50,906 nucleotides of DNA from Methylacidiphilum caldifontis (lineage in GTDB: Bacteria; Verrucomicrobiota; Verrucomicrobiia; Methylacidiphilales; CAMAQI01): NCBI GenBank assembly GCA_945877805.1, contig CAMCSM010000006.1, positions 1 to 50,906 of the forward strand. Direction: 5' to 3'. Position 1 is the first letter of the stretch. Each line of letters begins with the position of its first letter. The notes under the pieces are model-generated. The model searched no databases and was not told the DNA's origin. It saw only the letters and a program-made list of their open reading frames with translations. Shown in pieces: positions 26,791 to 37,151 of this stretch. The position numbers and the translations under genes are program-made.

Positions 26791-28110
26791 ATGAAATCGA
26801 TTCCCTCTTCCCAAAATACGGCGCTTACTTTTTTATCCGTGCTCTTTCTCCTTGGTGGCTCGCTCTTGATGCTTCCTTTTGGCCGATTGAACGAATTTGG
26901 AACGGTCCCCTATTTTTTACTTGGGGCCCTCGCTCTTTGTTTTGGTTTTGTTTGTAGCTGGCAAATTTCAACCCTCTCCCCAACAGTTTTTTGGGGAGCT
27001 GCAATCCTTACTCGGCTCTTACTCCTTTGGCAGGTTCCTGGAGATGATATCTATCGCTATGTCTGGGAAGGCCGAGTCCTTCTCTCCGGAATCAATCCTT
27101 ATCTTCATGCTCCGGATTCATCGATTTTAGAAGATCTTCGTGATATCGTGTGGAAAGCGGTTGAATACAAAGGCGTCACGGCGATTTATCCGCCGTTGAC
27201 TGAATTTCTCTTTGCATTTTTTTCATTCCTTTCACCGACTCCTTTCTTTTTTAAAGTTATCTTTGCATCTGCCGATATTGCGATTCTTTATCTTCTCACG
27301 CGCGAGTTTGGCCAAAAAGAGGCGCGACTCTATGCGTGGAACCCCCTGGTGATCTATTGCTTTGCAGGAGGGGGACACTACGACAGTCTCTTTATTCTTG
27401 CATTGGTCATTGGGTGGCTTAGCTATCGAAGAGAGAGAATCATTCTTGCGGCCCTTTTCATCGGAGTTGCGATTGCCTTAAAGTGGATTGCACTTTCCCT
27501 CGCTGGTTGGATTCTTTGGCGAACCCTTTATTCAAAACAGTATCGAGCGATCCTCCCGATCCTCCTTGCTCTTTCCTTGCCGATGATCGGCTCATGGGTC
27601 TTATTAAGTTTTTGGACCGATGAATGGACCTTTCAGATCTTCCCGAAACAGTTCACTCAATACGTGAGAAGCGTTGAATTCATTCCCGCAATCGTGGGGC
27701 ATTTCTGGAAGGAGAGTTTAAAACACAATGATTGGTTTCTCATCCCGCTGGCTCTCTTTTGGCTGGTAGCGATCCTTCGGTCACGAAGCTATGAAGGAGC
27801 GATCGAATGGATTTTCTTTCTCCTCTGGATCTTCTCGCCAATGATGCATGCGTGGTACTTTACCTGGATCATTCCCTTTGCGGTTCTCACTCGTAATCGG
27901 GGATCGATTGCGATTTCGATCAGTGGCTTTTTCTATTTCTCGATCCATCACTACTTTCAATCTCCTGGGGGTCAATGGGCACTCCCCCCACAAGTCGCTT
28001 TTTTAATGTGGTCGCCATTGATCTTAGGATTTTTATGGTCGACGGGAACCGTTCCAGTAAATCAGAGTTTACCTCAGAAGAACAGAGAGGGTGTAAATGA
28101 GGTTAGCTGA
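26791..28110 (+). CDS. GT87-like polytopic membrane glycosyltransferase
   Basis: A 439-residue membrane protein with about eleven hydrophobic spans. The first outer loop carries GDDIYRYVWEGRVLLSGINP and AIYPPLTEF, a pattern seen in GT-C mannosyltransferases of the GT87/MptB type, with the acidic pair as probable catalytic residues. It likely moves a sugar from a polyprenyl phosphate to a cell-surface acceptor. Its last codons (GVNEVS and TGA) lie within repeat copy C, so the insertion of that repeat appears to have set the present C-terminus. 15 bases after the SDR gene. Confidence 0.7.
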   Translation: MKSIPSSQNTALTFLSVLFLLGGSLLMLPFGRLNEFGTVPYFLLGALALCFGFVCSWQISTLSPTVFWGAAILTRLLLLWQVPGDDIYRYVWEGRVLLSGINPYLHAPDSSILEDLRDIVWKAVEYKGVTAIYPPLTEFLFAFFSFLSPTPFFFKVIFASADIAILYLLTREFGQKEARLYAWNPLVIYCFAGGGHYDSLFILALVIGWLSYRRERIILAALFIGVAIALKWIALSLAGWILWRTLYSKQYRAILPILLALSLPMIGSWVLLSFWTDEWTFQIFPKQFTQYVRSVEFIPAIVGHFWKESLKHNDWFLIPLALFWLVAILRSRSYEGAIEWIFFLLWIFSPMMHAWYFTWIIPFAVLTRNRGSIAISISGFFYFSIHHYFQSPGGQWALPPQVAFLMWSPLILGFLWSTGTVPVNQSLPQKNREGVNEVS

Positions 28111-28164: not shown

Positions 28165-28776
28165 ATGAAAATTCGTGCCGCGCTTCTCTTAAAGGCACCG
28201 ATCTTAGGAACGGTCAAAACGCGACTTGCCGCCTCTTTGGGAGGCGAGGAGGCAAAGCGAATCTACATTCAACTCGTGGAGTGGCAGCTTTCACAGATCC
28301 CTGACTCTTGGGGGATTGATATTCACTTTGCCCCCTCAACTGCCCTGAAGCAGATGGAGGAATGGATCTCACCTCTCAAAACCCAAAAGATTTCATTTTT
28401 TTCACAACCGGACGGAGATCTTGGAGTTCGATTAAGCGTAGCACTCCAAAACTCATTCTCCCAAGGAGCAGATCGAGTTGCCCTGATGGGAGGGGATTGT
28501 CCTGAACTAACATTCCACTATCTGCAAATCGCTGAGGAGTTTTCGATTTCATTTGATGCCACCATTGCCCCCGCTCTTGATGGGGGTTATGCTCTCTTGA
28601 TTTTGAATCAATACTACCCCTCACTTTTTCAAAACATTCCATGGAGTACATCCATAGTTTTTTCGGATACCAAGCAGGCAATGAAAAATCTTGGACTCAA
28701 AGTTCATGATCTAGCGGTTGTTGAAGATATTGACGACCTTGATTCATTTCAACGAAGTCGCCTCAGAAGCGGGTGA
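28165..28776 (+). CDS. Arsenosugar-associated glycosyltransferase 1 (TIGR04282-type)
   Basis: A 203-residue GT-A-like/nucleotidyltransferase-like protein of the family called 'transferase 1, rSAM/selenodomain-associated'. Visible features are the N-terminal LLLKAPILGTVKTRL (family pattern K.P..G.VKTRL), the MGGDCPEL metal/nucleotide motif and DGGYALL. The family is found in clusters with ArsS-type radical SAM proteins, and the TIGR04283-type partner and arsS are present a few kb on, so a role in finishing arsenosugars is likely. The ATG directly follows repeat copy C. Confidence 0.85.
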   Translation: MKIRAALLLKAPILGTVKTRLAASLGGEEAKRIYIQLVEWQLSQIPDSWGIDIHFAPSTALKQMEEWISPLKTQKISFFSQPDGDLGVRLSVALQNSFSQGADRVALMGGDCPELTFHYLQIAEEFSISFDATIAPALDGGYALLILNQYYPSLFQNIPWSTSIVFSDTKQAMKNLGLKVHDLAVVEDIDDLDSFQRSRLRSG

Positions 28777-28833
28777 TCGATCCCCTCATTCACTTCCCAC
28801 TGCATTTGTCGCAACGAAAAATATACGATAAAG

Positions 28834-29604
28834 TTATGAAAATCGATAGACAAAGTTCTTGAAAGAGACCTTTGCAATTTCTGGGGGCAATGCTTCTAAA
28901 AGACGTTGGAAGAGCAGGCTCCCTTTTTTTAGATTGGCGATTAATTCCTCCATTGAAGTCGGTTCCTCGATGACTCCATTCGCATAATCGATGGAATAAG
29001 CGACGAGGGCGTAAGGAAGTTCCAATTCATTGGCTAAAATCGCCTCTGGACCACAGGTCTGTGAGATAAAATCGCCCCCCGCAGAACGCATCAACTTGAT
29101 CTCTGCCTTTGAGTTAAATCGAGGTCCATTGGCATGGACATAACAACCATTACGAATTATCGGGTACTCTTTTTCCCATATTTGACGAATCACCAAATTC
29201 AAATCGGCATCAAAATAAGAACCTGCAATCAGATGTCCTCGTCCTATTTCTCCTGGCTGATCAAAAAAGGTACAAATTTCCCCTCCAGGAAGCCGGTTCT
29301 CCTCAAAAAGCAAATCGGTGCCCAACATCGGTTCTCCCAACTTCCAATCGGAGCGAAGCAACCCACAAACAGAAGTAGAAAGAATAATCGTCGCCCCTTC
29401 TTGTTTGAGGGCTAATAAATTCGCTCGGTGATTGAGATGATTGGGAAGATATTTGTGATCCTTTCCATGCCGCGGAAGCAACAACGCTTTCTTGCCCCCT
29501 ACTTCCCCACGCAATAAGGTAACGACTCCGTAACGAGTCGCCACGGATTGCTCTTCAAACCCGTCAATTCCATAAAAACCAGATCCAGAAATAAGTCCTA
29601 TCAT
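28834..29604 (-). CDS. MTA-phosphorylase-like nucleoside phosphorylase
   Basis: A family-2 purine nucleoside phosphorylase of the 5'-methylthioadenosine phosphorylase group, 256 residues from ATG 29604 (SD AAGGA; a TTG at 29616 is rejected). Features: GLISGSGFYG for phosphate binding, LPRHGKDHKYLPNHLNHRAN, NGCYVHANGPRFNSKAEI and the base-binding Asp in YSIDYANG. In the arsenosugar pathway the adenine of the ArsS product has to be removed, and an MTAP-type enzyme is suited to that; the location supports it. Alternatively it is an ordinary methionine-salvage enzyme. Confidence 0.82.
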   Translation of the reverse strand: MIGLISGSGFYGIDGFEEQSVATRYGVVTLLRGEVGGKKALLLPRHGKDHKYLPNHLNHRANLLALKQEGATIILSTSVCGLLRSDWKLGEPMLGTDLLFEENRLPGGEICTFFDQPGEIGRGHLIAGSYFDADLNLVIRQIWEKEYPIIRNGCYVHANGPRFNSKAEIKLMRSAGGDFISQTCGPEAILANELELPYALVAYSIDYANGVIEEPTSMEELIANLKKGSLLFQRLLEALPPEIAKVSFKNFVYRFS

Positions 29605-29660
29605 ATTGTCCTTCAAATTTAAGTATTAGATCATATTTATTAAAACTCTAGCCGTTTTAA

Positions 29661-29850
29661 AGGGTGCAAGAGTAAGGAAAAATCATTTTTTGCATTGTGC
29701 CGAGTTCTTTGGGAAAGAACGAGACGATCGAGCGAAAGCGAGAGGCTGCAGGACGCAGCCAGAGTGAGTCGGGAACACTAATTGCGAAGCAATAAACTAT
29801 ACAAACAGGGTCTAGACGTATGGCGCAGGGGAATGGGGCGCAAATGAACG
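29661..29850 (+). repeat. Dispersed intergenic repeat, copy D (diverged)
   Basis: Begins AGGGTGCAAGAGTAAGG and has the distal part GCAATAAACTATACAAACAGGGTCT and GGCGCAGGGGAATGGGGCGCAAATGA, which aligns with the 3' half of copies A and B. The middle portion is unlike the other copies. It lies in the gene-free interval 29605-30198. Confidence 0.5.
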
Positions 29851-30198
29851 AATCATCATGGAGTTGGAGAATCTCCCATGACGATTGAGTGATTATTAGG
29901 TTTCGCAAAGGCAGAGAATGACATTGATGTTCAGGATGGGGAGGATAAATTCAAAAACAATTTTCTTTGGTCTTTATCCTGTTCATCCTGTTAATCGATG
30001 CAAAATTCCACTCCCTTCGCCCATGCCGCTCCCGCCCATGCGCATCGGCGTCAACTTAAGGATAGAGCGGGAGGGACCTCGTCCCTCCCGTTTTTAAATT
30101 CCCCATACGGTTTCAATGTCACTCTATTATGCGAGTCTCAATAGGCCACAGGATTATTTAAAACGCTCTAAAAATAATTTAAATCACTTCTCTTGAGT
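29851..30198. other. Gene-free interval made of small repeats
   Basis: No gene is seen. It holds an inverted repeat at 29933-29949 / 29973-29989 (AGGATGGGGAGGATAAA against TTTATCCTGTTCATCCT), the TTAAGTTGACGC repeat on the minus strand at 30039-30059, and a terminator-like hairpin at 30068-30095. The interval seems to be a collection site of short intergenic repeats between two minus-strand genes. Confidence 0.6.
30068..30095 (+). terminator. Terminator-like hairpin in an intergenic repeat
   Basis: A perfect 10-bp stem CGGGAGGGAC / GTCCCTCCCG with loop CTC and five T after it on the plus strand. Both flanking genes run on the minus strand, so it terminates no obvious gene; it may be part of a mobile repeat or block antisense transcription. 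Confidence 0.55.
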
Positions 30199-31572
30199 CT
30201 ATCTCGACTTCATTTTCCCCAAGAGCGATAGCCCCTCTTCATGATTGTAACGATTATTAGTAGGACCATTCTCCAAAGAGAGAACCCCACGGGGACAGAC
30301 GGTCGCACAGATACCACATCCGACACAGGAGGCACGGATGATATTTTGACCCCGTTGTGCGTAATGACGGACATCGATCCCCATCTCGCAATATTTCGAA
30401 CAATTTCCACAGGAGATACATTGCGCTCCATTGGTTGTAATCCGGAATCGAGAGTTAAATCGTTGTAATAATCCTAAAAAAGCGGCCATGGGGCAGCCGA
30501 AGCGACACCACATCCGTGTTCCCATCAAGGGATAAAATCCAACCCCAATAACTCCTGAAAATACAGCTCCAATCCCAAAAAGATAAAACCGTCGAATCTG
30601 ATAGACGATCTCTTTCATCGAAGCGGGCAAATAAGGTTCACACCAAAGTAGAACAGTTAAGGAAAATATGAGGGCGAGTACACTATAGATCGACCAACGT
30701 TCGATTTTCCAGGATTTCAACGATTTATCGGAAAGCTGTCGCCACGAATCCCCCATAGTATTCGCCAATCCTCCACACCCACAAACCCACGAGCAATACC
30801 ATCGTTTACCAAAATAATAGGTTAATACGGGAGTGGCTAAGAATGTTCCACAAATAAACCAGCCGGCGATAAAATAGCCCAATCCTCCCGAATGAAATAA
30901 ATGCATCACGGTAGAGGGAAACAGTTTGTCATAAGCCAAAGGCCAAAAATAGGTAAGATAAACCTCCGGTTGATTAAACTTCACGCAGATGGCAGGAAAA
31001 AGATAAGCAAAGATGAGTTGTGCAAAAATAATCACACTCGTTCGGACGATATGGTATCGATTATGACGATACTTTGCGATCGCCTTAGCTCCCATCAAAG
31101 TCGTGAGAATCGTATATACCGTTCCATAAACAAACCATTCATCGGCCGGCTTTCCTTGAAGGAATTGACTTAATCCATCATGAAGTCGGGTCAATCCCTC
31201 TAAATACTGAGGGAACCAATAAATAATAATGTAGAAACCGGTGAAAACAATTCCCAGCATCCAGCCCCAAGCCCCCCGAGCGGTTAAACTATCCGTTGTT
31301 TTTCCTTGGTTTCGAACTCCAGGTCGATCCTTCAGATGTTTCGAAAGAGCAAAGTAACCTCCCCCACCGATTGCGAGGGCCCAGGAAATATTAAACCAGA
31401 GGTTCTTCAGCGTTTCCGAAGTTGAGCCATTCACCGCGATCAAAGAAAGGGCTAAAAGCATCGATCCGATCCCCATCGCTGTCAGGGCAATCTTTTCGCT
31501 GATTCTAAGCCGTGGCCCGTGATGGGCAATTGAATGACTTTCATAGGCAAGGTTGGCGGTGATATCACTCAT
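30199..31572 (-). CDS. NapH/NosR-like membrane polyferredoxin
   Basis: A 457-residue integral membrane iron-sulfur protein. Several hydrophobic spans fill residues 30-360. Two Cys motifs face the membrane edge (WYCSWVCGCGG near 265 and MWCRFGCPMA near 365), as in NapH, NosR and CcoG. Two 4Fe-4S ferredoxin motifs follow: CISCGNCSKYCEMG (with Glu in place of the usual Pro) and CVGCGICATVCPRG. It should pass electrons across or along the membrane. It is 19 bases downstream of the FAD oxidoreductase gene on the same strand, so the two may form one redox unit. The link to arsenic chemistry is by position only. Confidence 0.82.
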   Translation of the reverse strand: MSDITANLAYESHSIAHHGPRLRISEKIALTAMGIGSMLLALSLIAVNGSTSETLKNLWFNISWALAIGGGGYFALSKHLKDRPGVRNQGKTTDSLTARGAWGWMLGIVFTGFYIIIYWFPQYLEGLTRLHDGLSQFLQGKPADEWFVYGTVYTILTTLMGAKAIAKYRHNRYHIVRTSVIIFAQLIFAYLFPAICVKFNQPEVYLTYFWPLAYDKLFPSTVMHLFHSGGLGYFIAGWFICGTFLATPVLTYYFGKRWYCSWVCGCGGLANTMGDSWRQLSDKSLKSWKIERWSIYSVLALIFSLTVLLWCEPYLPASMKEIVYQIRRFYLFGIGAVFSGVIGVGFYPLMGTRMWCRFGCPMAAFLGLLQRFNSRFRITTNGAQCISCGNCSKYCEMGIDVRHYAQRGQNIIRASCVGCGICATVCPRGVLSLENGPTNNRYNHEEGLSLLGKMKSR

Positions 31573-31591
31573 TGTTTTCTCTCTGTTGAAT

Positions 31592-32944
31592 TTATTTTAA
31601 AATCTTTGCAAAGAACTTCGAAAAAAGTCCCTTTTTGGTTTTCAGTTCGACCGGTTGATCTGGATAAAGAAGATTAAAGGCACTGATGATTTCGATCTCA
31701 TATTGACTATAAAACTCCGGATCGAAATTTGCCGCCCCTAAATGAGTCAATACCTCATGAATAGTCTTTTTCTCTAAAATCCATTGCTCCCAAACTTGAT
31801 GACGATGACGAATCCCAAAGACATTAACTCCTAAAACAGCTCCCAACTTTTCTTCAAAATTGATCCGCACCGACTTATTTCCCTCGGGATGCTCCCAGTA
31901 AAAACTTTTCTCCCCCTCTTTCAACTTGGGCATCACCCACCCATAGGTCTGATATTCAATATCGAAAAATTTTGCCGAATTAAACCAAATCCCTGGATCA
32001 TACTCAGCAAGGTCACCACATATATTCGCCGCAAGCCGCTCGCCTTGTATTTTTCCGGTGTACCAAACCTGTTCAACAGGTCGTCGGCCTTCGGGGGCCT
32101 CGCGATGCTGCGCACAATCTCCTCCCGCCCAAATATCAGGAACTGAGGTTTTCAGGAAACGATCAACCAAAATACCTCGATCACATTCAATTCCTGAGGC
32201 CTTAACCATCTCAATCTGAGGACTGACTCCGGCGGTTAAAAAGACCATCTCGCATGCTATTTCCTCTCCCGAAAGAGTTTGTATGGCTCGGACTCGACCT
32301 TCTCCGTCGCTTAAAATCTCTTTGAGTCCCGTCTCTAATCGAAGATCGACTCCGTGGGCTTGAATCTCTCGATTGATCATCGCCGATTCCCCTATCGGTA
32401 ATACAGACCCCCAAAAGGTTTTCTCACGAACTAAAAAAGTGACCTGGATGTTACGAGTTAAAAGCATCTCGGCGACCTCAACCCCGATTAAGCCACCGCC
32501 AACCAAAACTGCTCGTTTAGCCCCTTTCGCATTTCGCTCCATCATTTCCAGATCTTGATAGGAATAAAGACCTTGAACCCCCTCAAGATCCTCCCCTGGC
32601 CAGCCAAAACGGTTCGGTTTCGATCCGGTCGCTAAAATGAGGGTGTCATACTTTAATGATTCCCCATTTTTAAAAAGAAGTTGTTTTTGTTGAGAATCGA
32701 TCGAATGAACCCATCCCCGTTTGAGATCGATACGATTCTTGGCCCAAAAATCATCGGGGTAAGGTTTTGTATCCTCATAGCGCATATCTCCCATGAAGAT
32801 ATACATCAGGGCTGTCCGCGAAAAATGGTGCTCAGTCTCTCCGGAAACCACCGTAATTCGATGATTGGAACGCTTACGCAGCGTACGGGCTGCGGTGATT
32901 CCCGTGATTCCATTCCCTAAAATAACAATATGACGTTCGCTCAT
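31592..32944 (-). CDS. NAD(P)/FAD-dependent oxidoreductase
   Basis: A 450-residue pyridine nucleotide-disulfide oxidoreductase-type flavoprotein. The FAD loop is VILGNGITGITAARTL (about 6-21), the second dinucleotide loop AVLVGGGLIGVEVAE (about 144-158) and the FAD-closing motif DIWAGGDCAQH (near 278). There is no CxxxxC redox pair, so it is closer to ferredoxin/rubredoxin or NAD(P)H dehydrogenase-type members than to glutathione reductase. The C-terminal 100 residues are an extension. Divergent from arsM and followed by the polyferredoxin gene, it probably supplies or accepts its electrons. Confidence 0.85.
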   Translation of the reverse strand: MSERHIVILGNGITGITAARTLRKRSNHRITVVSGETEHHFSRTALMYIFMGDMRYEDTKPYPDDFWAKNRIDLKRGWVHSIDSQQKQLLFKNGESLKYDTLILATGSKPNRFGWPGEDLEGVQGLYSYQDLEMMERNAKGAKRAVLVGGGLIGVEVAEMLLTRNIQVTFLVREKTFWGSVLPIGESAMINREIQAHGVDLRLETGLKEILSDGEGRVRAIQTLSGEEIACEMVFLTAGVSPQIEMVKASGIECDRGILVDRFLKTSVPDIWAGGDCAQHREAPEGRRPVEQVWYTGKIQGERLAANICGDLAEYDPGIWFNSAKFFDIEYQTYGWVMPKLKEGEKSFYWEHPEGNKSVRINFEEKLGAVLGVNVFGIRHRHQVWEQWILEKKTIHEVLTHLGAANFDPEFYSQYEIEIISAFNLLYPDQPVELKTKKGLFSKFFAKILK

Positions 32945-33129
32945 AGTATTAACTAAGAGTAATGATCCTGAAATTTATTTCCATTTAAATTTTATTTTTT
33001 ATGATCTCCTTATTGAATTGTATTTGAGCTCACTTTAGAACGAGGCGCCGACTGGTCGCATCGTAATAAGCTAAAAAAAGACCTCGCCACGGGAATAAAG
33101 GGGCGCTTCGCTACTCTTACACTAAATTT

Positions 33130-34275
33130 ATGAAAAACGAAACTGTTGTCAAAAACCGTTATGCCGCCGCCTCTAAAGCTCAAGAAGCACAACTCTGCTG
33201 CCCGGTTGAGTACAATAAAGAGTACTTAAAAATTATTCCCACCGAGGTGATTGAACGGGATTACGGCTGTGGAGATCCCTCTCAATATGTGAAAAAGGGT
33301 GAAACCGTTCTCGATCTCGGCTCTGGAACCGGAAAAATCTGTTTTATCGCATCCCAAGTCGTCGGCCCCACCGGAAAGGTCATCGGAGTCGATATGACCG
33401 ATGATATGCTTGAAGTCGCCCGTCGCAATGCCCCGGTTGTCGCTCAATCGATCGGCTATGCCAATGTCGAGTTCCGTAAGGGACGAATTCAAGATCTCGC
33501 CCTTGATCTCGAAATCCTTGACGCGGAGCTCAAAAAACGTCCAATCTCCGATGTCACCTCTTTTCTAGCTGCCGATGAGCTAGCGGAAGAGCTCCGGGTA
33601 AAATCCCCACTCGTTGCTTCGAATTCAATCGATGTTGTCGTCTCCAACTGCGTTCTGAATCTCGTCGATTCCCACGCTAAACCGCAATTATTTCAAGAGA
33701 TTTTTAGAACCCTTAAAATCGGCGGTCGGGCCGTGATCTCGGATATCGTTGCCGATGAACTCGTCCCCGAAGAGCTTCAAAATGATCCAGAGCTTTGGAG
33801 CGGTTGTATTTCCGGAGCTCTCACCGAAGAGGGATTCCTCAAAGCTTTTGCGGATGCTGGATTTCATGGAATCGAGATCCTCAAACTCGATCAAAAACCG
33901 TGGCAAACCGTCGCTGGAATCGAGTTTCGCTCGATGACAATTCAAGCCTTTAAAGGGAAAATCGGTCCCTGTTTCGAACGGAATCAAGCGGTGATCTATC
34001 GCGGCCCCTTTAAAGAGATTTTAGATGATGATGGACATCGCATGGAGCGCGGGGTTCGTTATGCCGTCTGCGATAAAACCTTTCAGCTCTATCGTAAATC
34101 GCCGTATGCCTCCTATTTTGAATTCATCGAACCGATGGAGCCGATTCCTCTCGATGAAGCTCAACCGTTCGACTGTAGCAGGACCGCCCACCGTCATCCT
34201 CAGGAAACTAAGGGAATGAACTATCAAGTGACCACCGCACCCTCGGAGTGCTGCGGTACAACGAGCTGTTGTTAG
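33130..34275 (+). CDS. arsM: Arsenite methyltransferase of arsenosugar synthesis
   Basis: SAM-dependent methylation of As(III). The 381-residue protein has the SAM loop VLDLGSGTGKICF (about 56-68) and IGVDMTDDML. Cysteines that bind arsenite in ArsM enzymes are represented by C23/C24 in QLCCPVEY, C46, a Cys in VVSNCVLN and one in WSGCISG. The C-terminus ends in CCGTTSCC (374-381), a thiol-rich tail for metalloid capture. Methylation is the first step towards dimethylarsinoyl sugars. It opens the plus-strand operon arsM-glycosyltransferase-transporter-arsS. No arsR gene is seen. Confidence 0.93.
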   Translation: MKNETVVKNRYAAASKAQEAQLCCPVEYNKEYLKIIPTEVIERDYGCGDPSQYVKKGETVLDLGSGTGKICFIASQVVGPTGKVIGVDMTDDMLEVARRNAPVVAQSIGYANVEFRKGRIQDLALDLEILDAELKKRPISDVTSFLAADELAEELRVKSPLVASNSIDVVVSNCVLNLVDSHAKPQLFQEIFRTLKIGGRAVISDIVADELVPEELQNDPELWSGCISGALTEEGFLKAFADAGFHGIEILKLDQKPWQTVAGIEFRSMTIQAFKGKIGPCFERNQAVIYRGPFKEILDDDGHRMERGVRYAVCDKTFQLYRKSPYASYFEFIEPMEPIPLDEAQPFDCSRTAHRHPQETKGMNYQVTTAPSECCGTTSCC

Positions 34276-34280
34276 AAGAG

Positions 34281-35030
34281 ATGATTCCTCCCCCTGATCA
34301 CAAAAAAGAACTCGATCCCTCGAGTTTTGCGGCGTTCTCTGATCGTACCATGGTGATCATTCCGGCTTATAACGAGGAGGCCTGTATCAGTTCAATCGTC
34401 AAACGGCTTTATGATCGTGGATTCTCTCATCTTCGAGTCGTTGACAATGGGAGTACCGATGCCACCGCTCCTCTTGCCCGTGAAGCGGGAGCAGAGGTCA
34501 TTTCGGATCCACGAAGAGGCTACGGACTCGCCTGTTGGCTGGGAGGAGTCAACCTGCCTCAAGGAATTGAATGGCTCCTCTATTGCAACGCAGATGCAAG
34601 CGATGATTTTGAAGCTTACGACTCGTTTGCTCAACTCGCCGACTATCACGACCTGATTCTCGGAGCTCGCACCTCTCCCGAGGATCGACTTCAGATGACC
34701 GTTCCACAGCGATTTGGAAATTGGCTTGCCCCCTTTTTAATTTCTCTTTTTTGGGGAGAGTCTTTTTCTGATTTAGGGCCTCAACGAGCGATCCGAGTCT
34801 CGGCTTATCAAAAAATCGATATGCAAGATCGTGGTTTTGGATGGACCGTCGAGATGCAAGTCCGGGCCGTCCAGGAAAAACTGCGGATCATTGAAATCCC
34901 CGTTCATACCTTTCCTCGTGCAGCAGGGGTCTCAAAAATCTCTGGAAATCTCAAAGGAAGCCTCCAAGCGGGCGTGATTATTTTAACAACGATCGCTCAA
35001 CTGATTTTTCAATCTGCCAAAAAAAAATAA
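34281..35030 (+). CDS. Arsenosugar-associated glycosyltransferase 2 (TIGR04283-type, GT2)
   Basis: A family-2 glycosyltransferase of about 249 residues from ATG 34281, five bases after the arsM stop; a GTG at 34248 would overlap arsM. The GT-A features are MVIIPAYNEEACI, VVDNGSTDAT, the DxD-like NADASDD and a C-terminal stretch like dolichol-phosphate mannose synthases. The family 'transferase 2, rSAM/selenodomain-associated' accompanies ArsS. Its role is probably to add or modify the sugar aglycone; the exact acceptor is not known. Confidence 0.85.
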   Translation: MIPPPDHKKELDPSSFAAFSDRTMVIIPAYNEEACISSIVKRLYDRGFSHLRVVDNGSTDATAPLAREAGAEVISDPRRGYGLACWLGGVNLPQGIEWLLYCNADASDDFEAYDSFAQLADYHDLILGARTSPEDRLQMTVPQRFGNWLAPFLISLFWGESFSDLGPQRAIRVSAYQKIDMQDRGFGWTVEMQVRAVQEKLRIIEIPVHTFPRAAGVSKISGNLKGSLQAGVIILTTIAQLIFQSAKKK

Positions 35031-35037
35031 CGCCATT

Positions 35038-36159
35038 ATGATAACCCTCATTATTTTCTCACTCGTACTCATTCTCGCATTCATGAACGGCGCCAATGAC
35101 AATTTCAAAGGAGTCTCAACTCTTTATGGCAGTAAAGTCACTACCTATAAACAAGCCCTCACCTGGGCCTCCATCACCACTTTTCTCGGAAGCCTGACTT
35201 CGCTTTTCCTTGCTCAAGCCTTAATCGTTCGATTTTCAGGAAAAGGACTCGTCGATGAATTAGTCTCTACCTCTCCCTACTTTGTTATTGCTGTAGCCTT
35301 AGGAACGATCATTACGCTCGTTCTCGCCACTCGCTTCGGCTTTCCTATTTCCACAACCCATGCTCTTTTAGGATCGCTCATCGGAGTAGGACTCATTTCA
35401 AATTCTTCTCTCTTTAATCTCACCCTTCTCTCTCAAAAATTTATTTTCCCCCTTCTCTTCACTCCTATCCTCTCCGCACTTCTAGCTTCGCTTGTTTTTG
35501 GACTCACCTCCATTTTTAAAAACTTCCTTCTTCCGTCTGAGCCTCATTGCATTTGTCTTCATTCACGCATCCCTTTTTGGGCGCTCTCCCCCTGTTGTCA
35601 AAATTCCGCTCTTCCGCATCCATCGATCGATCTGCAAATCGAATCTCCCTCCCAATGCAATTCAATAAGTGCCCCCCCCTTAGCCCGAATCGTACTCCCC
35701 TCTCTCATCGATTCTCTTCACTTTATCAGCGCAGGAGCCGTCTGTTTTGCTCGCGGACTCAATGACACTCCAAAAATAATGGGGCTACTACTCTTATCCT
35801 CCGCGCTTTCCATTCAACACTCCATCATGATGATCGCCATCGCAATGGTGATGGGAGGGATTATAGGAGGAAGAAAAGTCGCTGAAACAACCAGTCAACG
35901 CGTGACCTCCATGAATCCTCGCGAAGGATTATCCGCAAATCTTTCGACTGCCCTTCTCGTCACCACCGCAAGTCTCCATGGTCTTCCTGCAAGCACGACG
36001 CATGTGACCATCGGAGGGCTCATCGGAGTAGGCTCCATTACAAAAAAAATGCACTGGAAACCGGTGCTTGGAATTTTAACTTCTTGGATCCTCACACTTC
36101 CTTGCTCTCTCTTTTTTGCTGCCCTGAGCTTTTATCTCCTTCAAAAAAAACATTTATGA
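35038..36159 (+). CDS. PiT-family inorganic phosphate (arsenate?) transporter with Cys-rich loop
   Basis: A 373-residue membrane protein of the PHO4/PiT family, with the two inverted signature motifs FMNGANDNFKG (16-25) and ARGLNDTPKIMG (238-249) and about ten membrane spans. Family members take up phosphate and, unavoidably, arsenate. The central cytoplasmic loop (165-215) holds five cysteines (C171, C173, C186, C187, C207) and three histidines, unusual for this family. Located between arsM-GT2 and arsS, eight bases after the former and overlapping the latter, so it may transport arsenate or an arsenic metabolite (inference). Confidence 0.85.
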   Translation: MITLIIFSLVLILAFMNGANDNFKGVSTLYGSKVTTYKQALTWASITTFLGSLTSLFLAQALIVRFSGKGLVDELVSTSPYFVIAVALGTIITLVLATRFGFPISTTHALLGSLIGVGLISNSSLFNLTLLSQKFIFPLLFTPILSALLASLVFGLTSIFKNFLLPSEPHCICLHSRIPFWALSPCCQNSALPHPSIDLQIESPSQCNSISAPPLARIVLPSLIDSLHFISAGAVCFARGLNDTPKIMGLLLLSSALSIQHSIMMIAIAMVMGGIIGGRKVAETTSQRVTSMNPREGLSANLSTALLVTTASLHGLPASTTHVTIGGLIGVGSITKKMHWKPVLGILTSWILTLPCSLFFAALSFYLLQKKHL

Positions 36160-37151
36160 AATCAACTCCACTTTCCTCTTCTGTTTCTCTCTTTGAGAAA
36201 ATCCTTCAAAAAAACAATCTCACTATTTCACGCACAAAAACTGAAATCCTTCAAATTAACGTCGGAAAACTTTGTAACCTTACCTGCTCTCATTGTCATG
36301 TAAACGCAGGTCCCAAACGTCAGGAGATCATTCAGCGAGAGACGATCGATCGTATTCTCGAATGGCTCCGCAAAACGGAGATCGCAACGGTCGATCTTAC
36401 CGGCGGTGCACCAGAAATGATCCCTGACTTTCAATATTTAATTCAACAACTTCGATCTCTCCCAAAAGTCAAAACGATCATCGACCGATGTAATCTCACC
36501 ATTTTAAACGAACCGGGATATGAGTGGCTTGCTCCATTTCTTTTAGAACATCGCCTTGAAATCGTTGCCTCCATGCCTTGTTACTCTGCCGCCAATGTGA
36601 ATGCTCAGCGCGGAGAGGGAGTTTTTGATTCTAGTATTCTTGGACTACAAACATTAAATCGACTCGGTTACGGTAAAGAAGAATCCTTGCCACTTCACCT
36701 CGTCTATAATCCTGGAGGTCCCTTTCTTCCTCCGGATCAAAAAGAATTGGAGTCCGATTATAAACGAGAACTTAAAACTCATTTTGACATTATTTTCAAC
36801 CAACTTTTTGCAATCACGAACATGCCGATTTCGCGTTATAAATCATGGCTTAAAAATAACGGTCATCTGGAGTCCTATATGTCCCTGCTACGAGATTCCT
36901 TTAATCCCGCCTCGATTTCAGGATTGATGTGCCGCAATACCATCAACATCGGTTGGCAAGGAGAGGTTTACGACTGCGATTTCAATCAGCAACTTGGCAT
37001 GCAATGGAAAGTGGAAAAACCACGATTGCTGTGGGAGATTGATCCGCAAGAAATCGAGCAACACCCCATTGCATTTGGGGAACACTGTTTTGGCTGTACC
37101 GCCGGTTGTGGCTCCTCCTGCCAAGGAGTCCTTGTCGAGAGTTCATTCTAA
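36156..37151 (+). CDS. arsS: Arsenosugar biosynthesis radical SAM protein
   Basis: A radical-SAM enzyme that joins the 5'-deoxyadenosyl group to dimethylarsenite, giving the nucleoside precursor of arsenosugars. From ATG 36156 (ATGA overlap with the transporter) it has 331 residues. The cluster motif is C40-x3-C44-x2-C47 in KLCNLTCSHCHVNAGP, the GGAPEM SAM segment follows near 85, and the C-terminus carries CFGCTAGCGSSCQG (311-324), the Cys-rich tail region of the rSAM/selenodomain family. The extra Cys318 in this tail is notable. No in-frame TGA that would suggest selenocysteine is seen. Confidence 0.92.
   Translation: MKSTPLSSSVSLFEKILQKNNLTISRTKTEILQINVGKLCNLTCSHCHVNAGPKRQEIIQRETIDRILEWLRKTEIATVDLTGGAPEMIPDFQYLIQQLRSLPKVKTIIDRCNLTILNEPGYEWLAPFLLEHRLEIVASMPCYSAANVNAQRGEGVFDSSILGLQTLNRLGYGKEESLPLHLVYNPGGPFLPPDQKELESDYKRELKTHFDIIFNQLFAITNMPISRYKSWLKNNGHLESYMSLLRDSFNPASISGLMCRNTINIGWQGEVYDCDFNQQLGMQWKVEKPRLLWEIDPQEIEQHPIAFGEHCFGCTAGCGSSCQGVLVESSF

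Follow-up and report, generated by a model that had tools for sequence, protein, structure and literature searches.

The question raised by a cluster of genes at positions 28165–37151 of a 50,906-nucleotide stretch of Methylacidiphilum caldifontis DNA (the window, part of one contig in the 2.94-Mb, 96 % complete draft genome of this lake bacterium) is what supplies electrons for arsenosugar formation. To our knowledge, neither the reductant of the arsenosugar-forming enzymes nor the reason for, and control of, bacterial arsenosugar synthesis is settled. The cluster encodes an ArsM-like arsenite methyltransferase and the radical S-adenosylmethionine (rSAM) enzyme ArsS, together with a flavin adenine dinucleotide (FAD) oxidoreductase and a NapH-like membrane polyferredoxin, which the initial annotation proposed as an electron supply for ArsM and ArsS; it placed the genes of this pair 19 bases apart on the minus strand, and both details are exact. 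The best overall explanation is that the pair is a cytoplasm-facing electron-transfer accessory co-induced with the arsenosugar operon, a reading to which we give a probability of about 0.5.

At least six phyla share the FAD/polyferredoxin pair as a conserved two-gene unit. About 85,000 species were scanned, and 52 polyferredoxin loci emerged, from Verrucomicrobiota, Bacteroidota, Planctomycetota, Myxococcota, Gemmatimonadetes, Dadabacteria and others, and in nearly all of them the FAD gene lies directly upstream on the same strand; among 247 evenly sampled Bacteroidota, 53 of which have the pair, the two genes adjoin on the same strand in 45. The pattern exceeds chance, with the pair recurring as a unit in dozens of genomes and its link to ArsS far above background. 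ArsS is encoded in 40 of 50 pair-bearing genomes (background, 18 of 289 Verrucomicrobiota) and within 10 kb of the pair in 9 of the 52 loci. The Bacteroidota sample has ArsS in 104 genomes and both in 36, so that ArsS is present in 36 of the 53 genomes with the pair versus 68 of the 194 without it (odds ratio 3.9, p 3e-5, uncorrected for kinship), and the two lie no more than 25 kb apart in at least 11 of the 36, against about 0.5 expected from position. In one Planctomycetota locus (L039) the order is ArsS-FAD-polyferredoxin-ArsM-PiT, all in one direction. The arsS-linked label takes seven changes on the polyferredoxin tree, six of them forced by well-supported branches, which argues that linkage has been gained or lost repeatedly. 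A pair that is a mere neighbour, functionally unrelated to arsenosugars, would suit the finding that, outside the gene order of the window, most pair loci lie more than 10 kb from arsS, but this explanation is already disfavoured by the co-occurrence and linkage, as well as by the fusion and common promoter motif described below, and we regard it as very improbable.

In several Dadabacteria loci (L018, L021, L022, L025 and others) the pair is preceded by genes for a rhodanese, a NifU_N protein and a family of 444-amino-acid (aa) proteins, and ArsS is encoded elsewhere in these genomes, away from the pair. The label SufS was tried for the 444-aa family and dropped, Pfam and NCBIfam having given no match.

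Among Verrucomicrobiota that have ArsS and no pair, some arsS operons encode a protein of 750–800 aa in which a Pyr_redox_3 FAD domain, different in type from that of the pair, is fused to the same kind of polyferredoxin. We rejected an assignment of the 770-aa protein of pair-less arsS operons as a NosR homologue, since its sequence is that of an FAD domain fused to a polyferredoxin. The gene order is DUF547-ArsS-ArsM-fusion-MTAP-TIGR04282 in L152 and L154, and fusion-TIGR04282-DUF547-AhpD-like-ArsS-GT2 in the Bacteroidota loci L219 and L220. Pair and fusion occur together in no genome of the Bacteroidota sample, in which all six fusion-bearing genomes have ArsS and two other long matches, both without ArsS, fail the fusion model. 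Five fusion-bearing Verrucomicrobiota genomes are without ArsS, so the fusion, like the pair, is not exclusive to it.

The genes arsM, GT2, pit and arsS overlap or are at most 7 bases apart and thus look like one operon, from which the operon of the FAD and polyferredoxin genes diverges. The 185 bases between the two carry G(R)AATAAA-N14-CTCTTA, a motif of the type recognized by extracytoplasmic function (ECF) sigma factors, on both strands. Both copies are kept in three genomes of the genus (that of the window and two congeners), and the more distant LW23 has the variant GGAATAAA-N15-CTCCCA on both sides. The strict bipartite motif has 7 matches in 2.94 Mb, against 0.2–0.4 expected and none for a reversed-pattern control. 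Other copies lie upstream of genes for a secreted MsrB, a thioredoxin/PMSR-like protein and a cysteine-rich peptide, and two further copies have no identified gene downstream. The operon of the peptide gene also encodes MNIO_BufB, DUF2063 and DoxX, and a close variant of the motif stands directly upstream of the ECF sigma gene of this bufferin cluster in all three species. Sequence evidence of this kind suggests that arsM-arsS and the pair are co-regulated, and the copies at the MsrB and thioredoxin/PMSR-like genes point to a putative regulon joining metal, sulfoxide and arsenic genes. We note that the bufferin-type cluster (L278:2217-6430, contig C3 of the same genome) encodes the ECF sigma factor, an anti-sigma-like protein, the Cys-rich CSGKDGC peptide, MNIO_BufB, DUF2063 and DoxX, and that the motif-bearing secreted MsrB and VPGUxxT-type thioredoxin/PMSR-like protein are found at L280:2979-3494 and L279:4474-5409.

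The content of the putative regulon (secreted MsrB, thioredoxin/PMSR-like protein and bufferin operon) also favours a second rival explanation, in which the pair is a general donor under metal or oxidant stress, for example in sulfoxide or thiol repair, and shares the ECF regulon of arsM by coincidence; the presence of the pair in ArsS-negative genomes fits this too. In Caulobacter, sigma-F drives a DUF2282-DUF692-DUF2063-DoxX operon of homologous arrangement and responds to chromium and cadmium stress (PMC3511200). As in that system (see also the MNIO survey, PMC12452194), an ECF sigma gene is clustered here with an MNIO-DUF2063-DoxX operon and has a promoter motif in common with it, although the motifs differ (GGGAATAAA-N14-CTCTTA versus GTAACC-N16-CGAA) and the putative regulon adds arsM-arsS and the pair. 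Physical linkage to arsS, repeated in several phyla, and the fusions inside arsS operons call for a more specific link than a general donor would provide, however, and we consider this explanation unlikely.

As to the proteins themselves, a path from NAD(P)H through FAD to iron-sulfur (Fe-S) clusters would be the natural reading of the pair. The FAD protein has a Pyr_redox_2 fold and a single invariant Cys, in the FAD-binding GDCA motif; it is thus without an active-site disulfide, as is characteristic of the ferredoxin-reductase type, and among solved structures the ferredoxin/rubredoxin reductases and NADH oxidases are nearest to it. It resembles the ferredoxin, rubredoxin and putidaredoxin reductases (Pyr_redox_2; PDB 3lxd, 3fg2, 1q1r) in its FAD and NAD(P)H domains and in the one-electron Fe-S acceptor that would be expected for it, but its C-terminal part has invariant residues of its own and its genetic partner is a membrane polyferredoxin. 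The latter has 13 Cys that are invariant in 28 orthologues, of which eight serve two [4Fe-4S] clusters and the others lie in CX3CXC (three) and CX3CP (two). It shares membrane helices, CX3CP-type motifs and a C-terminal double [4Fe-4S] domain with NapH, MauN and NosR, and both CX3C motifs and both C-terminal [4Fe-4S] sites of the NapH/MauN type are present, but it misses the cut-off of the NapH/MauN model TIGR02163 (68.3 versus 213 bits), has more helices, and is partnered by a cytosolic FAD reductase instead of NapG or NosZ. Since its AlphaFold model (mean predicted local distance difference test score 66.6) gave no meaningful match in the PDB (best E-value 0.3), its topology was taken from loop charge and hydropathy; a hidden Markov model search of the PDB returned ferredoxin-domain matches only. 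Every invariant redox Cys is predicted to be cytoplasmic, as donation to cytosolic enzymes would require. The cysteines of NapH are likewise on the cytoplasmic side, in a similar arrangement.

We propose that NAD(P)H would reduce the FAD protein, which in turn would reduce, one electron at a time, the [4Fe-4S] domain of its membrane-bound partner; the module would face the cytoplasm, and the pair would count among the arsenosugar genes as an accessory. An ECF sigma factor would switch on the pair and the arsM-GT2-pit-arsS operon together, and would also drive the operon for the bufferin (a metal-chelating peptide) and genes of methionine-sulfoxide-reductase type. The likeliest acceptors would be reductive steps that the pathway carries out in the cytosol, above all at the catalytic cluster of ArsS and next in the re-reduction of pentavalent methylarsenicals for ArsM and ArsS; we infer the direction of electron flow, any quinone involvement, the acceptor, the action of the sigma factor and the inducing metal. 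Because of the co-occurrence with ArsS, the linkage, the replacement by a fusion and the common promoter motif, it is quite likely that the pair belongs functionally with the arsenosugar locus, as the initial annotation had it, and the pair is probably an unrecognized accessory, though one that the pathway can do without. Direct electron supply from the pair to ArsS or ArsM has at best an even chance. A broader proposal, that the NAD(P)H-FAD-polyferredoxin membrane complex, as yet unassigned, serves arsenosugar synthesis in several phyla, in its two-gene and fused forms, as the dedicated low-potential donor, and that arsenosugar formation in this lineage belongs to an ECF-sigma/bufferin response to metal stress, is possible and in our view doubtful.

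Several observations weigh against the proposed accessory role. In its stand-alone form the pair is lacking from 68 of the 104 ArsS-bearing Bacteroidota and from 17 of the 18 ArsS-bearing Verrucomicrobiota; ArsS is absent from 17 of the 53 pair-bearing Bacteroidota genomes; the putative regulon includes non-arsenic genes; many of the genomes compared are incomplete metagenome-assembled genomes (MAGs); and the pair adjoins GT2, GT87 and DUF547 genes more often than arsS. Thus the pair is not confined to genomes with ArsS, and ArsS does not require it. The comparison of arsS neighbourhoods across phyla that the initial annotation suggested has a divided outcome, with the pair or the fusion beside arsS in several phyla and most ArsS genomes without the pair; the pattern that it named as contrary, a pair regularly found away from arsS and tied to another pathway, is seen in part. 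At the 53 Bacteroidota pair loci a GT2-GT2-GT87 cassette occurs in 18, DUF547 in 17 and arsS, within about 9.5 kb, in seven, and none of the three is present in 11 control regions. These counts and the ArsS-negative genomes suggest that the pair is tied to a wider glycoconjugate module, of which ArsS appears to be a frequent but non-obligatory member.

The main rival explanation starts from the same cassette. The pair would serve polyprenyl-linked sugar steps (GT2, cellulose-synthase-like GT2, GT87, DUF547, rhodanese), for example by reducing an envelope-side or lipid-linked intermediate, and the link to ArsS would be indirect, arsenosugars being one substrate of the cassette. Many Bacteroidota have FAD-polyferredoxin-GT2-GT2-GT87 as a tight operon, five of the 18 cassette-bearing loci are in genomes without ArsS, a lipoprotein gene remains beside that of the polyferredoxin where the FAD gene is absent, and GT2 and GT87 genes are also found in the window. 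We nevertheless consider this role rather unlikely, as the redox genes of Verrucomicrobiota, Planctomycetota and Melioribacter/Kapaibacterium accompany ArsS or ArsM without a second GT2, and the predicted redox Cys are all cytoplasmic. The lipoprotein family (about 300 aa; L189:10162-11100, L192:12508-13401, L024:5646-6566) has no database match. In two further loci (L202 and L203) TIGR04282 and TIGR04283 accompany the pair and ArsS was found in neither genome; given these, the arsenosugar naming of the two families may be too narrow.

The genes of the window were identified by profile searches (TIGR/NCBIfam and Pfam models) against curated cut-offs (Table 1). The ArsM-like, ArsS, TIGR04282, MTAP-like, FAD oxidoreductase and polyferredoxin genes of the initial annotation all have profile matches, and 'MTAP-like' is an apt label for a phosphorylase that scores below the equivalog cut-off and has relatives in other arsS clusters. 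A second rSAM-associated glycosyltransferase had also been named; the gene in question, whose start may alternatively be ATG 34281, scores 31.9 bits against the TIGR04283 cut-off of 182, which no gene anywhere in the genome passes. The ArsM-like protein falls under the cut-off of the arsenosugar-type model NF038099 (130.6 versus 400 bits). The PiT/PHO4 transporter, omitted from the earlier gene list, is a repeated member of arsM/arsS clusters in three phyla, including Bacteroidota and Planctomycetota (the window, L052, L117, L039 and L226), and might import arsenate or phosphate. The start of ArsS, earlier put at TTG 36084, is most likely the ATG that overlaps the PiT stop codon. Relatives of the GT87 protein are found in the FAD-polyferredoxin-GT2-GT2-GT87 operons of Bacteroidota, so that its gene, though outside 28165–37151, belongs to the recurring set. 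DUF547, frequent in other clusters, was not found in the genome by a search that had no positive control.

Table 1. Genes and promoter motifs of the arsenosugar locus and its left flank
Feature	Coordinates	Strand	Evidence and remarks
GT87-type membrane glycosyltransferase	26791..28110	+	GT87 E-value 9e-5, slightly short of Pfam cut-off
TIGR04282 arsenosugar-associated glycosyltransferase	28165..28776	+	150 bits, passes cut-off of 134
MTAP-like nucleoside phosphorylase	28834..29616	-	TIGR01694 156 bits, short of equivalog cut-off 275; PNP_UDP_1
NapH-like membrane polyferredoxin	30199..31572	-	Roughly 8 helices; Cys motifs CX3CXC and CX3CP; domain with two [4Fe-4S] sites at the C-terminus
FAD/NAD(P)H oxidoreductase, ferredoxin-reductase type	31592..32944	-	Pyr_redox_2; without redox-active disulfide
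ECF-type promoter motif GGAAATAAA-N14-CTCTTA	32953..32982	-	9 bases upstream of FAD start codon
ECF-type promoter motif GGGAATAAA-N14-CTCTTA	33091..33119	+	10 bases upstream of arsM start codon
ArsM-like arsenite methyltransferase, operon gene 1 of 4	33130..34275	+	NF040538 341 bits (cut-off 500), PRK11873 205 bits; both under equivalog cut-offs
GT2, AglJ/polyprenyl-phosphate-sugar synthase type	34248..35030	+	Best model TIGR04182, E-value 4e-25
PiT/PHO4-family transporter	35038..36159	+	PHO4 E-value 3e-62
ArsS radical SAM enzyme, last operon gene	36156..37151	+	TIGR04167 440 bits, passes cut-off of 300; DUF3641

The first steps of bacterial arsenosugar synthesis, by ArsM and ArsS, have been shown in Synechocystis (Xue 2019 and Cheng 2021, cited in PMC8552651 and PMC12159101). 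The window resembles the bacterial arsenosugar cluster in having the ArsM-like, ArsS, TIGR04282 and MTAP-like genes together, and differs from it in the lack of a true TIGR04283 gene, in the additional PiT, AglJ-like GT2, GT87 and redox genes, and in its apparent ECF-type control. Little was found on ArsS or arsenosugar gene clusters in the open-access literature, to which the search was confined, and no paper there assigns the pair to arsenosugars or names a reductant of the arsenosugar enzymes. The locus thus offers a specific and testable donor candidate, in the pair or its natural fusion. It also points to a regulatory connection, likewise testable, of arsenic biochemistry with the bufferin/metal-stress response, and it brings to light PiT, AglJ-like GT2, GT87 and DUF547 as unrecognized members of arsenosugar clusters. 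Finally, two public MAG records, entitled 'Methylacidiphilum sp. Phi' and 'Akkermansia muciniphila' (L010 and L012), look like congeners of the genome of the window, and their titles are probably wrong.

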